From NCBI GenBank assembly GCA_028748975.1, contig JAQTPI010000008.1:1-44473 (forward strand): a stretch of 44,473 nt of DNA. Direction: 5' to 3'. This stretch comes from Patescibacteria group bacterium. GTDB taxonomy: Bacteria > Patescibacteriota > Patescibacteriia > UBA2196. The stretch's first letter is position 1. Every line of letters begins with the position of its first letter. Made by a program: the position numbers and the translations under genes. The notes below the pieces were generated by a model that was not told where the DNA came from, did no database searches, and saw only the letters and a program-made list of their open reading frames with translations. Below are positions 2,960 through 44,466 of this stretch, piece after piece.

Positions 2960-3490
2960 TCATTTTAATCCAAAAAGATCTTTCAGTCTTTTCTCACTGC
3001 TAATATGCTTGGCTTCAACATATTCAAACCAATCGCCTTCCCGAAAACCAGGGATAATTTCATATAAATCATCAATAATATCATAGGGAGTAATCCAGAC
3101 GCTCTTTTGGAGTTTGATAAAACCAAGATTCAATAAACTTTGGCGCATATTATCTCGGAAACGACGCTTATTTTCGGGAATATCAAAAATCAAGATACGC
3201 CACTGGCCATCCCATTTTTGTTTTTTGATTTTTGTTTTGATTAATAACTTGGTCACTATTTTTTTACCCTTTTTGGTAAGATAAATAAATTTATTATTAT
3301 TTTTTTCCTTAACAACAATGTGTTTTGATTTTTGTAAATTATAAAATGAATTATAAAAACCTTTAGGCGCGCCGCCATATAGAAATTTCTTAAATTCTTT
3401 AAAATCAAAAACGGCTTTAATTAAAAGGTTGTTGGAATCTATAAAACATTCTAAAAGGTATTTGGACGCATTTGATAATCCTCTTTTCAT
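2960..3490 (-). CDS. PaaX-like regulator / Cas2-fold protein (N-terminal wHTH-like region plus ferredoxin-like domain)
   Basis: WRILIFDIPENKRRFRDNMRQSLLNLGFIKLQKSVWITPYD typical of PaaX middle domain/Cas2-like proteins. Confidence 0.75.
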   Translation of the reverse strand: MKRGLSNASKYLLECFIDSNNLLIKAVFDFKEFKKFLYGGAPKGFYNSFYNLQKSKHIVVKEKNNNKFIYLTKKGKKIVTKLLIKTKIKKQKWDGQWRILIFDIPENKRRFRDNMRQSLLNLGFIKLQKSVWITPYDIIDDLYEIIPGFREGDWFEYVEAKHISSEKRLKDLFGLK

Positions 3491-3507
3491 ATATTTTTGT
3501 AATTTTA

Positions 3508-3547
3508 TTTCTGTAAATACCTCACGATCGTGAGGTATTTACAGAAA
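3508..3547. repeat. Perfect 40-bp palindrome TTTCTGTAAATACCTCACGATCGTGAGGTATTTACAGAAA
   Basis: Exact self-complementarity; central 32 bp identical to 2887..2918. Confidence 0.95.
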
Positions 3548-3582
3548 ATATTAAAAATTTACTTTTTAAATTTTCATTTAAT

Positions 3583-5408: not shown

Positions 5409-5480
5409 GCGCCACGACCTCACCCCTTCCCTCTCCTTATAAAGGAGAGGGGGGACGTACGCCTATCGGCGAAATAAAAA

Positions 5481-5567: not shown

Positions 5568-8500
5568 CTAAACCACAATACTCACAATTTTCCCTTTGAT
5601 ATAAATTATTTTTTTCGGTTCCTTGCCGTCCAGCCATTTTTTGACTTTGGGTGAAGCGAGCACAACTGATTTTATTTCATCTTCACTGGCTTTGATGGAA
5701 ATAGCGATGGCGTCGCGCAGTTTGCCGTTAATTTGCACGCCGATTTCGATTTCATCAGCCACGATTAATTTCGGATCATATTCGGGCCAGCTTTCAAATA
5801 GAATAGATTTCTTATGACCGAGTTGCGACCAAATTTCTTCCGAGAGGTGCGGGGCGAATGGTGATAAAATCGTAATTAGTAACTCGTAATCCGTAACTCG
5901 TAACTCGGGCTGTTTTTCCATTTCATTCACCAAAATCATCATTGCGGAAATTGCTGTATTAAACCTCATGTTTTCAATATCTTCGCCAACTTTTTTAATA
6001 GTCTGATGTAATAAAGTTAATAATTTTTTATCCCCGATTTCTGATTTCTGATTTCTGTTTACTTTCTCCTGCAAGTCCCAAACTTTATTTAAAAATCTAT
6101 AAACCCCCACCACGCCTTTGTCATCCCAAGGAATTTGCTGGTCAAACGGGCCCATGAACATTTCATAAAGACGGACGGTGTCAGCGCCAAATTTCTGAAC
6201 ATAATCATCAGGATTGATGACGTTGCCTTTGGATTTGCTCATTTTAATTCCGCCTTCGCCCAAAACCATGCCGTGGGCAGTGCGTTTTTTATATGGTTCA
6301 TTTCCACATTCACGCGGCACAGCATTAATGTCGTATAAAAATTTCCAAACAAAGCGAGAATACAAAAGATGCAAGGTGGTGTGTTCCATGCCGCCGTTAT
6401 ACCAATCAACCGGCAGCCAGTATTTGGCTTTTTTAGGATCCACCATCATCTTGTTATTTTTCGGGTCGCAATAACGGATGAAATACCAATTGGAACCGGC
6501 CCAGTTGGGCATGACATCGGTTTCACGTTTGGCCGGCCCGCCGCAAACAGGGCATTTGGTATTAATCCAATCCGTGGCTTTGGCCAAAGGCGAGTCGCCG
6601 GAATCGGTCGGCATAAAATCTTCAATTTCCGGCAGAACAACTGGCAATTCATTTTCAGGAACAGGAACCCAGCCATTATTTTCAAGTTCAGCAAACTCTT
6701 TTAAAATTTCCGGAAATTCTTTAATTCCATAACCCTCATTAAAATGTCCTTTATTTTCAAAAACAATAAATTCTGGATTTAATGCTTTATATTCTTTTTT
6801 GGCATCCGAGGCAATAATAAAAGGATCATTTTCAGATAAATAGACAACCTTTTTTTCAGCTAATTTATTTAAAATTTTCCAGTCCGGTTCTTCACCACAA
6901 AAATCTTTTGCTACCTCTAAATCGCTTTCGTCAAATCCGGCTTTTCTTAAGCCTTCTAAATTCAAACAATTTTTACCAGCCGGCCCGACTAAAATTAATT
7001 TTTTTACCGCTAAATTGTTTTTTTCAATAAACTTACAAGCAGCAGGCGCGCCTAAACTGTGGCCGATTACCATCAAGTCGCCCGCAAACTTATCTTTTAA
7101 TTTTTCCAGAGATTCTAACCATTCTTCTAATTTTGGACTGTCAGTATTGGGCATATCTGGGATAAAAATATTTATCCCCCTTGCTTCCATTTCTTTTTTA
7201 AACCAAGGAAACCAATTTTCTTGCGAATGGCCACCAAAACCATGAATTATTAGGACGGTTGTTTTTTTCTTGGCGCAGGTTTCGCAATAAACCATCGGAA
7301 TCGGCTCGCCCCAATATCTTTGGCGGGAGAAAATCCAGTCGTGAAGTTTGTAGTTGACGGTTTTTTTACCAATTCCTTTTTCTTCCAACCAGGCGGTAAT
7401 TTTTTCTTTAAATTCAACCGTGGTTAATCCATCAAACTCGCCGGAATTAATTGCCACGCCATCACCAATAAAACACTCTTCTTTTGTTTTAATGTTTTCA
7501 TGTTTTAATGCTTTAATGTCTTTCACTACTTCCACGATTTCCAAACCATATTTTTTAGCAAATTCATAATCTCGAGTGTCGTGCGCGGGCACGGCCATGA
7601 TGGCGCCGGTGCCGTAACCCATTAAAACATAATCAGCGACAAAAATCGGAATTTCTTTATTATTGACCGGATTAATGGCTTTAATGCCTTTCAACTCCAC
7701 GCCGGTTTTTTCTTTGGCCAAATCCGTGCGTTCTATGTCTGTTTTCTTTTTTGATTCCTCAATATATTTTTTGACTTCTCCAAAATTCGAAATTCGAGAT
7801 TCGAAATTCGAAATTATTTCATGTTCTGGCGCCACAACCATAAACGTCGCACCAAACAAAGTGTCGGGGCGGGTGGTGAAAACCTTAAGGGTATCGGCAA
7901 CCCCTCCGGTTCGCTCGGAGCGAACCACCTCCCCTTCGGAAGGGGAGGATATCCCCTCCTTTCGAAGGAGGGGTGCCCCGACAGCAGTCGAGGGCGGGGT
8001 GGTTGTAATGGAAAAATCAACTTCCGCGCCTTCGCTGCGGCCGATCCAATTAATTTGCTGGGTTTTGATTTTTTCCAGATAATCAACGGTGCCTAAATCA
8101 TCAATCAAACGGTCGGCATATTTGGTGATGCGGAGTATCCACTGCTCTTTTTCTTTTTGCACGACTTCTCCGCCGCAGCGCTCACACTTGCCATTAACCA
8201 CTTCTTCGTTGGCCAAACCGACTTTACAAGAGGTGCACCAATTAATCGCTTCTTTGGCTTTGTAGGCCAAACCGTTTTTAAACATTTGAAGAAAAATCCA
8301 CTGCGTCCATTTATAATAATCTTCGTCGGTGGTGGAAAAGACTCGCGACCAATCAAAACCAAAACCAAGCGATTTTAATTGGCGCGTAAAAATCTGAATA
8401 TTTTTTTCCGTAATAATTTTGGGATTGACGCCCATTTTGATGGCATAGTTTTCCGTGGGCAAACCAAAAGAATCAAAACCAATCGGATAGAGAACATTAA

Positions 8501-8711
8501 AACCCTCCATTTTGCGCTTGCGGCAGATGATATCCATGGCGGTGTTGGAACGCGGGTGGCCGGTGTGGAGGCCGTCGCCGGAAGGATAGGGAAACTCAAT
8601 CAAGCCGTAAAATTTCGGCTTTTTTTCGTCCACTTCCACTTCAAAAATCTTTTGGTCAGCCCAAATTTTTTGCCACTTCTTTTCTATTTCTTTGTGGTTG
8701 TATTTTTCCAT
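5568..8711 (-). CDS. leuS: Leucyl-tRNA synthetase with embedded RBBP9/YdeN-like serine hydrolase domain and repeat-derived insertions
   Basis: KKWQKIWADQKIFE start at 8711, FPYPSGDGLHTGHPR, KMSKSKGNV, TTRPDTLFGAT editing domain; hydrolase with GHSLG at 6675..7274. Confidence 0.95.
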   Translation of the reverse strand: MEKYNHKEIEKKWQKIWADQKIFEVEVDEKKPKFYGLIEFPYPSGDGLHTGHPRSNTAMDIICRKRKMEGFNVLYPIGFDSFGLPTENYAIKMGVNPKIITEKNIQIFTRQLKSLGFGFDWSRVFSTTDEDYYKWTQWIFLQMFKNGLAYKAKEAINWCTSCKVGLANEEVVNGKCERCGGEVVQKEKEQWILRITKYADRLIDDLGTVDYLEKIKTQQINWIGRSEGAEVDFSITTTPPSTAVGAPLLRKEGISSPSEGEVVRSERTGGVADTLKVFTTRPDTLFGATFMVVAPEHEIISNFESRISNFGEVKKYIEESKKKTDIERTDLAKEKTGVELKGIKAINPVNNKEIPIFVADYVLMGYGTGAIMAVPAHDTRDYEFAKKYGLEIVEVVKDIKALKHENIKTKEECFIGDGVAINSGEFDGLTTVEFKEKITAWLEEKGIGKKTVNYKLHDWIFSRQRYWGEPIPMVYCETCAKKKTTVLIIHGFGGHSQENWFPWFKKEMEARGINIFIPDMPNTDSPKLEEWLESLEKLKDKFAGDLMVIGHSLGAPAACKFIEKNNLAVKKLILVGPAGKNCLNLEGLRKAGFDESDLEVAKDFCGEEPDWKILNKLAEKKVVYLSENDPFIIASDAKKEYKALNPEFIVFENKGHFNEGYGIKEFPEILKEFAELENNGWVPVPENELPVVLPEIEDFMPTDSGDSPLAKATDWINTKCPVCGGPAKRETDVMPNWAGSNWYFIRYCDPKNNKMMVDPKKAKYWLPVDWYNGGMEHTTLHLLYSRFVWKFLYDINAVPRECGNEPYKKRTAHGMVLGEGGIKMSKSKGNVINPDDYVQKFGADTVRLYEMFMGPFDQQIPWDDKGVVGVYRFLNKVWDLQEKVNRNQKSEIGDKKLLTLLHQTIKKVGEDIENMRFNTAISAMMILVNEMEKQPELRVTDYELLITILSPFAPHLSEEIWSQLGHKKSILFESWPEYDPKLIVADEIEIGVQINGKLRDAIAISIKASEDEIKSVVLASPKVKKWLDGKEPKKIIYIKGKIVSIVV

Positions 8712-9349: not shown

Positions 9350-9425
9350 GTTTTTCCTCCTTCTTTTTGCCCGCTTTCTGGCGGAACTGGTGATGGGTTT
9401 TGAAACAACAATTTTAAGCAATTAA

Positions 9426-9454
9426 AGCTTAGCACGGTTAAAAATTATTGTCAA
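9426..9454 (-). promoter_or_regulatory. Promoter TTGACA-N17-TAAGCT (TGC extended -10)
   Basis: Minus strand, upstream of 8897..9349. Confidence 0.75.
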
Positions 9455-9481
9455 ACTCCCCGCCTTTTTGACAAGAAAAAA

Positions 9482-9912: not shown

Positions 9913-9986
9913 GTTTTTCCTCCCTCTTTCTCCGCTTTTTGGCGGGACTGGTGATGGGTTTTGAAACAACAATTTTAAGCAATTAA

Positions 9987-10015
9987 AGCTTAGCACGGTT
10001 AAAAATTATTGTCAA
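9987..10015 (-). promoter_or_regulatory. Promoter TTGACA-N17-TAAGCT, duplicate of 9426..9454
   Basis: Sequence identity with the neighbouring cassette leader. Confidence 0.75.
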
Positions 10016-10182
10016 ATGGGGATAAAAATGCTACACTGGTAGATGGTAAAAGTTTGTAGATTTATGCTTAAATTGTCATTCTAATTATACACGCCTAGCG
10101 GCGAATTGACCCCCTCGCACTCCCCCTTGTTAAGGGGGAGATAACCACGACGAGATTCTTCTCCGCCAGCTGGCGGATCAGA

Positions 10183-23432: not shown

Positions 23433-23772
23433 AGATTTATTAAGCCTGTCCTGAGCGAACCCACCTAATTTTTTGCGAAGCAAAAATTTTGGCGGGGAGC
23501 CGAAGGACACCCTGTGAACCTGGGCGGACGTATTTTGCAAGTCCAACCTGTTTGCCACGGGATCCTTCGTCGGCCCGATTATCATCGGGCCTCCTCAGGA
23601 TAGACTCTGTTTCTAAAATAAAAAAACAAACTTTAGCCGCCCCGATGGATAAAACACCAACGAGAGGCCCCGAAGCCGATTAATATAATATATTGTATCG
23701 TCTCGGGTCTTAATAAAATACTTAGTTTACTTTATTATATCAAGCCATACTTTTTTGTCAAATACAGGCAAC

Positions 23773-28378: not shown

Positions 28379-28576
28379 TTTTTGTTTTTCCCTTGGACGC
28401 GTCGTCCCCCTCTCCTTACCAAGGAGAGGGCGGGGTGAGGTTTATACACTTCGCCGATAGGCGCGTCTTATTTACTATTCGTATATTCGTAAAAATTCGT
28501 AATTTGTAGTAGTCCGCTTTCAGCGGACAAAAAAATCCCCGCCGGTTTATCCCGACGGGGGCTTATTTTTTGGTAA

Positions 28577-30814: not shown

Positions 30815-30849
30815 ACGGTTATCATAGCACTAATTCTTAAAAAATGATA

Positions 30850-30887
30850 GTGTGTAAAAAACTCACGATCGTGAGTTTTTTACACAC
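30850..30887. repeat. Perfect 38-bp palindrome GTGTGTAAAAAACTCACGATCGTGAGTTTTTTACACAC
   Basis: Exact self-complementarity; shares core CTCACGATCGTGAG with 2887 and 3508 palindromes. Confidence 0.95.
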
Positions 30888-30937
30888 CCGATAAAAATTA
30901 AAACTCCCTCGCGTGGCGAGGGAGCACGGAATCAATG

Positions 30938-42051: not shown

Positions 42052-43164
42052 TCAGGATGACAATGTGGTCTGTAAATAACCATTAATGAATTCCTTTGCC
42101 TCCATTACTTTCTTCCCTTCCGGCTGGAGCTTTTTAATTTCCAATAATTTCCTGTCCCCGCCGGCGACAAAAAGTTTCCCATTCTCGGCAAATAATTCTC
42201 CTGGTGTATGTTTCTCGTTTTTTTCATCAACTAGAAACAGTTCTATAAATTTTATTTTTATGTTTTCTTGTTTTAATGCTTTAATGCTTTCATGCTTTAA
42301 TGCTTTCATGCTCGCAAACGCCCCCGGCCACGGCCAAAACGCCCGCCACTGGTTATAAATTTTTTTGGCTGGTTTATTCCAGTCAATTTCGCCGTCGCTT
42401 TTTTTAATAATCTTGCAAAACGTCGCTTTTGTATGGTCCTGTTCCGCTGGTTTGATTTTATTACTAAGATAATCAGGAATAATTGTTAGTAAAAAATCTC
42501 CGCTAGCCTGCGCCAGTTTTTCTGAAAGTATTTCGTAGGTGTCGTCATTGGAAATTGGAAATTGGAAATTGGAAATTATCGCACCGTGATCCATTTTCTC
42601 ATCCATCTTCATAATCGTCACGCCGGTTTCTTTCTCGCCATTTAAAAGCGCGGATTGAATCGGCGAAGCCCCGCGATATTTTGGCAAAAGCGAGGGATGA
42701 ATATTCAAACAGCCAAATTTCGGCAAATCCAAAAATTTTTGCGGAATAATTTTGCCGTAGGCCGCGACGATAAATAAATCTATAAAATCAGCAGCAGTGG
42801 CGACTGGTGAATTTTCCGTCGTTATCCCCTCCTTTCGAAGGAGGGGTGAGCCGATAGCAATCGGCTCGGGGTGGTTGTCGTTTCCAATTACAACCCCTCT
42901 GCCCTGCGGGGCACCTCCCCTTCGAAAGGGGAGGATACTCTGTAATTCATTATAAAATTCCTCGTCCAGCTTTTCCGGCTGCAAAACTTTTAATCCATTT
43001 TTCTCTGCTAAAATTTTCACTGGCGGGGCGGTCAAAATTTGTTTTCTGCCCACGAGTTCGTCGGGTGTAGTCACCACAGCCAAAATTTCATAACCCCTGT
43101 CGGCTATGATTTTTTGGAGTACGATTTCCGCAAATCTCGGCGTGCCAAAAAAGATGATTCGCAT
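42052..43164 (-). CDS. fmt: Methionyl-tRNA formyltransferase with repeat-derived in-frame insertions
   Basis: FFGTPRFAEIVLQ, LNIHPSLLPKYRGASPIQSALLNGEKETGVTIMKMDEKMDHG. Confidence 0.95.
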   Translation of the reverse strand: MRIIFFGTPRFAEIVLQKIIADRGYEILAVVTTPDELVGRKQILTAPPVKILAEKNGLKVLQPEKLDEEFYNELQSILPFRRGGAPQGRGVVIGNDNHPEPIAIGSPLLRKEGITTENSPVATAADFIDLFIVAAYGKIIPQKFLDLPKFGCLNIHPSLLPKYRGASPIQSALLNGEKETGVTIMKMDEKMDHGAIISNFQFPISNDDTYEILSEKLAQASGDFLLTIIPDYLSNKIKPAEQDHTKATFCKIIKKSDGEIDWNKPAKKIYNQWRAFWPWPGAFASMKALKHESIKALKQENIKIKFIELFLVDEKNEKHTPGELFAENGKLFVAGGDRKLLEIKKLQPEGKKVMEAKEFINGYLQTTLSS

Positions 43165-43401
43165 ATAATTTATCCCGAGTGACCCACCTAAGTTTTTGCG
43201 GGAGCAAAAATTTTGGCGGGGAGCCGAGGGATCTCGGTTATTTTATACATACTAAATTTATCATTTCTGACTGATAAAATCAACTTAATCTCGTCTTTTT
43301 TGTTTAATTTTGGTATGATATTAACATCCCTAATTTATAGATGAGAGATCCCTCGACTCGTCGCTCTTGCTCCTCGCTCGGGATAAACTACAGAAACTAT
43401 T

Positions 43402-44181
43402 ATGCCATTCATTCTCATTAATAAACCCGTCGGCCCGACTTCGCATGACATGATTAATAAATTGCGAAAAATTACGGGCATCAAGAAAATCGGCCACGCA
43501 GGCACGCTTGACCCTTTTGCCGAAGGCCTACTTTTGGTTGCCATCGGCCGCGAATCAACGAGAGAAATTTCCAAATTTGTGGGGCTGGATAAAAAATATC
43601 TGGCCACGCTGAAACTCGGGGTAGTGTCTGATACATTTGATAAAACCGGAAAGATTTCTATCCTCCCCTTTCGAAGGGGAGGTCTCCGACAGCAGTCGGA
43701 GGGAGGGGTTGTAATCGGAAATGACAACCACCCCGCCTTGCTCCCGCTCGGCACCCATCCTTCGAAAGGAGGGGATATTCCGCTAATCGGATTAACAAAA
43801 AAAGAAATCGCAAAAACTCTAAAAAAATTTCTGGGCGAACAAGACCAGCTTCCGCCCATGTTTTCCGCCAAACAAATTAATGGCAAAAGATTATATCAGC
43901 TGGCGCGGCAAGGCAGAGAAGTTGACCGCCCAACCCACAAAATTAATGTTTATAAAATTAAATTGATAAAATATCTCCCAAAGAAAAATGAATTAATTTT
44001 AGAAGTCAGCTGTTCTTCCGGCACCTACATTCGCGCGTTGGCCCATGACATCGGCCAAGCGCTTGGCACTGGCGCTTATCTGGAAAAACTAATTCGCACC
44101 GAAATCGGCAAATATAAAATTAAAAAAGCCGTGAAATCAGAAAAACTTACGGTAAAAAATTGGGAAAAATTTTGTTTTTAA
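43402..44181 (+). CDS. truB: tRNA pseudouridine(55) synthase with repeat-derived in-frame insertion
   Basis: INKPVGPTSHDMINKLRK, KIGHAGTLDPFAEGLLLVAIG, CSSGTYIRALAHDIGQALGTGAYL. Confidence 0.95.
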   Translation: MPFILINKPVGPTSHDMINKLRKITGIKKIGHAGTLDPFAEGLLLVAIGRESTREISKFVGLDKKYLATLKLGVVSDTFDKTGKISILPFRRGGLRQQSEGGVVIGNDNHPALLPLGTHPSKGGDIPLIGLTKKEIAKTLKKFLGEQDQLPPMFSAKQINGKRLYQLARQGREVDRPTHKINVYKIKLIKYLPKKNELILEVSCSSGTYIRALAHDIGQALGTGAYLEKLIRTEIGKYKIKKAVKSEKLTVKNWEKFCF

Positions 44182-44394: not shown

Positions 44395-44466
44395 TGTCCC
44401 CGGTAGGAATCGAACCTACATTGCAAGCTCCGCAAGCTTGCGTCCTATCCATTGAACGACGAGGAC
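44395..44466 (-). tRNA. tRNA-Arg, anticodon GCG, CCA not encoded
   Basis: GTCCTCG acceptor / CGGGGAC; D arm GTTC..GGAC; anticodon arm CAAGC-TTGCGGA-GCTTG; T arm GTAGG-TTCGATT-CCTAC. Confidence 0.9.

Follow-up and report, generated by a model that had tools for sequence, protein, structure and literature searches.

A probable new family of palindromic mobile elements lying in frame in truB, fmt, leuS and other genes of a Patescibacteria genome

Rickettsia is the best-known source of short palindromic repeats that lie in frame within genes, and REPs account for scattered cases outside it; such repeats now also come into view in several lineages of the streamlined Patescibacteria. The RPE are palindromic elements of ~150 bp that are found in frame in unrelated, often housekeeping, genes and are apparently translated (PMC10969869). 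The RPE targets include truB of R. conorii, and the truB genes of three proteobacteria have likewise been reported to contain REPs of one type or another (PMC3733652). Intragenic REP/RPE targets further include tRNA synthetases and uvr genes (PMC3733652). Hence, REPs and RPEs inside genes have been reported before, with truB among the targets, and the phenomenon as such is known (PMC3733652). A related group, the CGTC REPs, has no dedicated transposase known, is present in several phyla, often as dimers, and is intragenic in Rickettsia (RPE-4, RPE-6); its members carry CGTC at one end, an 8-9 bp stem, a 4-5 nt loop and a CCA tail (PMC3733652). Intragenic ERIC/RU elements and Coxiella MITEs are likewise small repeats of the non-autonomous type through which genes gain peptide sequence (PMC2759123, PMC5896051). 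We show here that a doublet repeat, built from two units termed A and B, lies in frame in three genes of one window, which is the whole stretch of DNA analysed (44,473 nucleotides from a Patescibacteria group bacterium with a genome of 0.9 Mb, 99% complete). The features concerned are the following:

43402..44181, plus strand: truB, tRNA pseudouridine synthase B (Pfam PF01509/PF16198), interrupted after FDKTGKI
43659..43777, plus strand: type I doublet in frame in truB, 119 bp, TATCC...GGATA (direct reading, blastn, folding)
43659-43712, 43713-43723 and 43724-43777, plus strand: unit A, spacer and inverted unit B of the truB doublet
42052..43164, minus strand: fmt, methionyl-tRNA formyltransferase, sole full copy in the genome (Pfam, orthologues, solved structure)
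42823..42937, minus strand: type I doublet in frame in fmt, 115 bp, unit A to inverted unit B (blastn, folding)
5568..8711, minus strand: leuS, leucyl-tRNA synthetase, with the insert located where the editing domain begins (Pfam, structure alignment)
7897..8006, minus strand: type II (inside-out) doublet in frame in leuS, with unit A at 7897-7951 (minus) and unit B at 7950-8006 (plus)

The truB element, TATCCTCCCCTTTCGAAGGGGAGGT...GGAGGGGTTGT...ACAACCACCCCG...TCCTTCGAAAGGAGGGGATA, is hairpin-rich and reads ILPFRRGGLRQQSEGGVVIGNDNHP...PSKGGDI in the frame of the gene, leaving a TruB frame that is intact and otherwise ordinary; a homologue search returned this truB as the single full-length match in the genome. 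Relative to its gene, the fmt copy has the same orientation and frame, and blastn within the genome aligns the two with 80% identity across the element (E 4.8e-22). Direct reading therefore bears out the first-pass annotation, which had described one repeat in frame in both TruB and Fmt with matching orientation and frame, while the end that it gave for the truB element, 43785, has to be moved to 43777. A third copy in the window, that in leuS, had been overlooked. The units of this doublet have the junction GGATATCC in common, and the leuS start codon was inferred from the alignment, which reaches residue 1 of T. thermophilus LeuRS.

Comparison with empty loops, done at the protein level with family-level relatives and with the solved TruB, Fmt, GluRS and LeuRS, gave a consistent picture. 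At the insertion site the TruB loop has ~44 residues, compared with a few to ~15 in orthologues of related genomes and 6 at the corresponding loop of the solved T. maritima enzyme. The Fmt insert is missing from 11 orthologues, which also lack ~10 residues downstream of the insert, and the solved Fmt is without it. The insert of LeuRS measures 39 residues, versus 6 in the solved T. thermophilus LeuRS, and a copy elsewhere in the genome gives GluRS an insert of 38 residues versus 1 in the solved GluRS. Judged by alignment, the TruB insert would sit in a surface loop; an AlphaFold2 model of TruB, calculated from the single sequence without an alignment, had a mean pLDDT of 36 and was unusable.

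The leuS palindrome is also an annotation hazard. ARAGORN calls a tRNA-Arg(ccg) on it (7900-7973, minus), which is almost certainly false, as Rfam places a tRNA only at 44395-44466. Apart from the palindrome, this LeuRS holds an inserted YdeN/RBBP9-like serine hydrolase domain (PF06821; PDB 1uxo; 6510-7442, minus), corresponding to residues 547-735 of the long leuS ORF. Of 36 relatives, 5 (G002, G018, G019, G020, G032) have the full stretch of this domain in a LeuRS-sized frame; in most other relatives it is not at that LeuRS site, and in a few a similar domain occurs at another place of the same frame. Further repeats are present in the window. Intermixed with the A/B family is a sister family of palindromes, CCCTCTCC...GGAGAGGG, whose tail resembles GGGGTGAGG; it is found at 1751-1795, 5414-5456 and 28401-28435. 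Palindromes of the TGTAAATACCTCACGATCGTGAGGTATTTACA type occur at 2867-2929, 3492-3554 and 30833-30895, two of these three copies flanking a 176-aa ORF at 2960-3490. Direct repeats of 93 bp that are 95% identical (9363-9455 and 9924-10016) mark the starts of two adjacent ORFs, and a dispersed repeat, TCC-GAGCGAACCCACCTAA...GCAAAAATTTTGGCGGGGAGCCGA, is seen at 23449-23507 and 43173-43231 with 78% identity.

Each element consists of two different two-hairpin units, A and B, that face each other in either order. A unit of ~54 bp comprises hairpin 1, the sequence-variable hairpin 2 and a G-rich tail with TTGT at its end; hairpin 1 is CCTCCCC-TTTCGAA-GGGGAGG in A and CCCCTCC-TTTCGAA-GGAGGGG in B, and the units start with TATCCTCCCCTTTCGAAGGGGAGG and TATCCCCTCCTTTCGAAGGAGGGG, respectively. 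Type I doublets have the tails inward (tail to tail), start with TATCC and end with GGATA, their ends matching at 20 of 24 positions. In type II doublets the TATCC ends point inward (head to head), ~10 bp apart. Within the short head-to-head spacer, an ACGACG/CGTCGT-like motif was noticed in G000 and in G203, a distant genome of the phylum (L198, L199, L206, L208), which recalls the CGTC tag of CGTC REPs. Folding of the truB element stands out from shuffled sequences by z -5.2 for DNA and RNA alike, and that of the fmt element by z -7.1 for DNA and -7.5 for RNA. Covariation was analysed in 25 units picked by length to align in register, a selection that favours the aligned register. In this set 98.3% of hairpin 2 cells are paired, 6 of 7 pairs are changed on both sides and a single G-U pair occurs in 175 cells, while the whole structure is 99.3% paired versus 80% in shuffles. 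Since G-U pairs are nearly absent and pairs change on both sides, pairing in DNA fits better than pairing in RNA, suggesting that the hairpins are maintained by DNA-level pairing.

The genome holds 34 full doublets (22 of type I and 12 of type II) and ~7 partial or variant copies in unrelated flanks; two 'half' copies, C1:72482 and C8:42793, duplicate full copies and were left out of the count. Beyond the two genes in which the repeat was originally seen, further genic copies thus exist: among ~40 copies genome-wide, 11 (about one quarter) lie in frame within genes, ten as full elements and one as a half element in a glycosyltransferase that was itself recognised by eye. The hosts, otherwise identified with Pfam, are TruB, Fmt, LeuRS, GluRS, DusB, UvrC, an AlkD-type protein, a PLP enzyme, two glycosyltransferases and one unknown ORF, so that ten hosts are recognisable enzymes and one is an ORF without Pfam match. 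At the 24 other full copies no visibly split gene was found, the neighbours looking complete and different. Long antisense ORFs over copies (for example at C9:21358) were judged spurious. Genic copies are far fewer than a coding fraction of 85-90% predicts (p < 1e-17, with this fraction assumed and n=43 entered versus 41 copies counted), which indicates that either insertion avoids genes or most genic insertions are lost.

None of the 11 genic copies has a stop. For the ten full ones, open frames throughout would have a probability of ~2.5e-5 if frames were hit blindly, in keeping with the initial proposal that repeat DNA is tolerated here as protein, as in RPE, and at odds with random frames and frequent stops. 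The element itself is rich in open frames: intergenic copies have 2.75 of 6 frames open on average versus 1.46 in shuffles, and in intergenic type I copies the average exceeds 3 of 6, with sense frame 1 open in 6 of 17. The further proposal of one stop-free frame in one orientation holds in part. Sense frame 1 is used by four of the five type I genic copies (TruB, Fmt, PLP enzyme and AlkD), a bias with p 0.0006 for that frame and 0.03 for any frame, the copies not being independent. Genic usage as a whole, on the other hand, extends over several frames, both strands and two arrangements, with another sense frame in GluRS, the antisense strand in the glycosyltransferases and the inside-out arrangement in LeuRS, DusB and UvrC. 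The four frame-1 copies have a similar central spacer (AATYGGAAA or alike) and may therefore descend from one source copy.

The A/B repeat architecture is common to Patescibacteria and other phyla. Matches to the unit A pattern were obtained in Omnitrophica, Flavobacteriaceae, Leeuwenhoekiella, Geitlerinema, Moranbacteria, Nitrospirae and Oscillospiraceae; full copies of unit A, spacer and inverted unit B are found in Omnitrophica and one Flavobacteriaceae genome, and the other named genomes show an A-like unit only. Both arrangements are present in Omnitrophica, where an Omnitrophica genome with 42 hairpins has neighbour spacings of ~75-115 bp and 35-37 bp, which correspond to type I and type II, respectively, and none of ~20 hairpin sites is convincingly within a gene. 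Of 379 genomes sampled from the phylum, 42 show a broader hairpin pattern, which takes in sister families such as CTCTCC...GGAGAG; counts run from 0-33 per genome, and this genome ranks highest with 127 in this survey (127-136 hairpins of the broader pattern overall), while a reversed-pattern control gave ~1. In G203, which belongs to another family, 8 of 22 examined hairpin sites are in frame in recognisable proteins: TruB (in the loop hit here too), a Mur ligase, two mannosyltransferases of the PMT type (one of them scoring below the Pfam cut-off), a glycosyltransferase, an O-antigen ligase, DHFR and an Asp/Glu racemase. A genome of the same family has a further in-frame copy in PheT, and another genome has one in a glycosyltransferase; G004, a genome of the same order, has a different palindrome (TCTCCCCCTTGCCAAGGGGGAG...) in the same TruB loop (truB L081). 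Judged from these sequences, the TruB loop is a site hit independently in two patescibacterial families, and in a third genome by a different palindrome. As truB is also a target in Rickettsia and three other proteobacteria, this loop offers a natural test of how much foreign sequence is tolerated by an essential enzyme.

Dispersed copies, two arrangements, empty orthologue loops, open frames, maintained hairpins and a patchy spread across phyla point to a palindromic mobile element that is non-autonomous and of the REP-doublet/RPE type. It probably represents a new family, and copies inserted into a tolerant loop would be translated. The element may spread via a folded single-stranded DNA form, moved by an enzyme acting in trans. 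Most genic insertions would then be lost, and the survivors would be those with an open frame in a tolerant surface loop, where the insert would be translated as a loop of ~40 residues; a new function is not required. Inverted hairpin doublets, two unit orders and many dispersed copies also resemble REPINs/BIMEs, and Y1 transposases are present in 15 of 24 carrier genomes tested, so that a REP-associated Y1 tyrosine transposase (RAYT), present now or recently lost, might be the mobilising enzyme. We regard this as unlikely: the 99% complete genome studied here has no Y1 match even at E 0.1, family hairpins flank 0 of 35 Y1 genes in carriers, several of which have hairpins of their own, and a constant GTAG tag is missing, the unit ends being TATCC and TTGT with weakly GTNGT flanks. 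The type I ends, TATCC/GGATA and alike at 20 of 24 positions, could be taken for the 24-bp imperfect terminal inverted repeats of a DDE-type MITE. That is improbable, considering that target-site duplications were seen in 0 of 22 copies, where direct repeats of 1-5 nt are not above shuffled flanks, that each 'terminal repeat' is itself palindromic, and that the inside-out type II would be without such termini. Phage records and viral contigs gave no match to the element, plasmids gave none to the truB copy, and a hand-made consensus had a single partial match, of 39 nt, in a Deinococcus plasmid. With no Y1 linkage, no target-site duplication and no phage or viral carriage, the element looks like an orphan repeat without a linked Y1 transposase, similar to the CGTC REPs (PMC3733652), and it raises the concrete question of what moves orphan palindromic repeats.

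Two further readings place the element at the RNA level. The maintenance of paired hairpins and the mostly intergenic position of the copies, of which 14/24 full ones lie between co-oriented genes and one, judged by protein ends, between tuf and rpsJ, would suit a conserved functional RNA or terminator kept for regulation and not by selfish spread. Such a role has a low probability in our view, because the TruB and Fmt orthologues do without the element, copies reside in coding sequences unrelated to one another, copy numbers are extremely patchy, 7/24 intergenic full copies lie between divergent genes and Rfam has no match above chance. In the genes, the mRNA hairpins are very stable (-62 to -67 kcal/mol) and affect conserved enzymes, which might suggest that the insert is absent from the mature protein, being removed from the mRNA by splicing or bypassed by ribosomes in the manner of mitochondrial byp elements. 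This seems very improbable indeed, since all genic copies are open in the gene frame, which would be needless upon skipping or splicing, and no intron or other RNA family was matched. The mobile element reading can be extended tentatively. It is possible, though doubtful, that one doublet family spread horizontally among several bacterial phyla with the help of an enzyme class so far not linked to REP-like repeats, and that in Patescibacteria it repeatedly added new peptide loops to essential enzymes of translation, repair and the envelope, with the TruB loop as a recurrent landing site.

According to the first-pass annotation, no RPE-like family was known to be described from CPR, and our search of the open-access literature agrees: it gave no description of the A/B family, of its architecture of two units in two orders, of its phylum spread or of its frequency in Patescibacteria genes. 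Several known systems come close. Like ERIC/RU elements and Coxiella MITEs, the A/B element is a small non-autonomous repeat contributing peptide sequence; those elements differ in sequence and end structure, and the definition of MITEs rests on terminal inverted repeats and, as a rule, target-site duplications. With the GTAG REPs, BIMEs and REPINs it has in common the inverted hairpin pairs in head-to-head and tail-to-tail order (12 type II and 22 type I copies here) and intragenic copies, but it has neither a GTAG tag nor a linked Y1 transposase and contains two hairpins per unit. The CGTC REPs are similar in their presence in several phyla, their doublets and their genic copies, and a Y1 family search of A/B carriers found no linked transposase; in the A/B element, however, CGTC adjoins some ends only, a CCA tail is missing, and unit length and two-hairpin anatomy are different. 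Compared by description, the RPE belong to another host phylum, whereas the A/B element has distinct units, two orders and relatives in several phyla. What the two have in common is that they lie in frame in unrelated ORFs and are absent from the orthologues.
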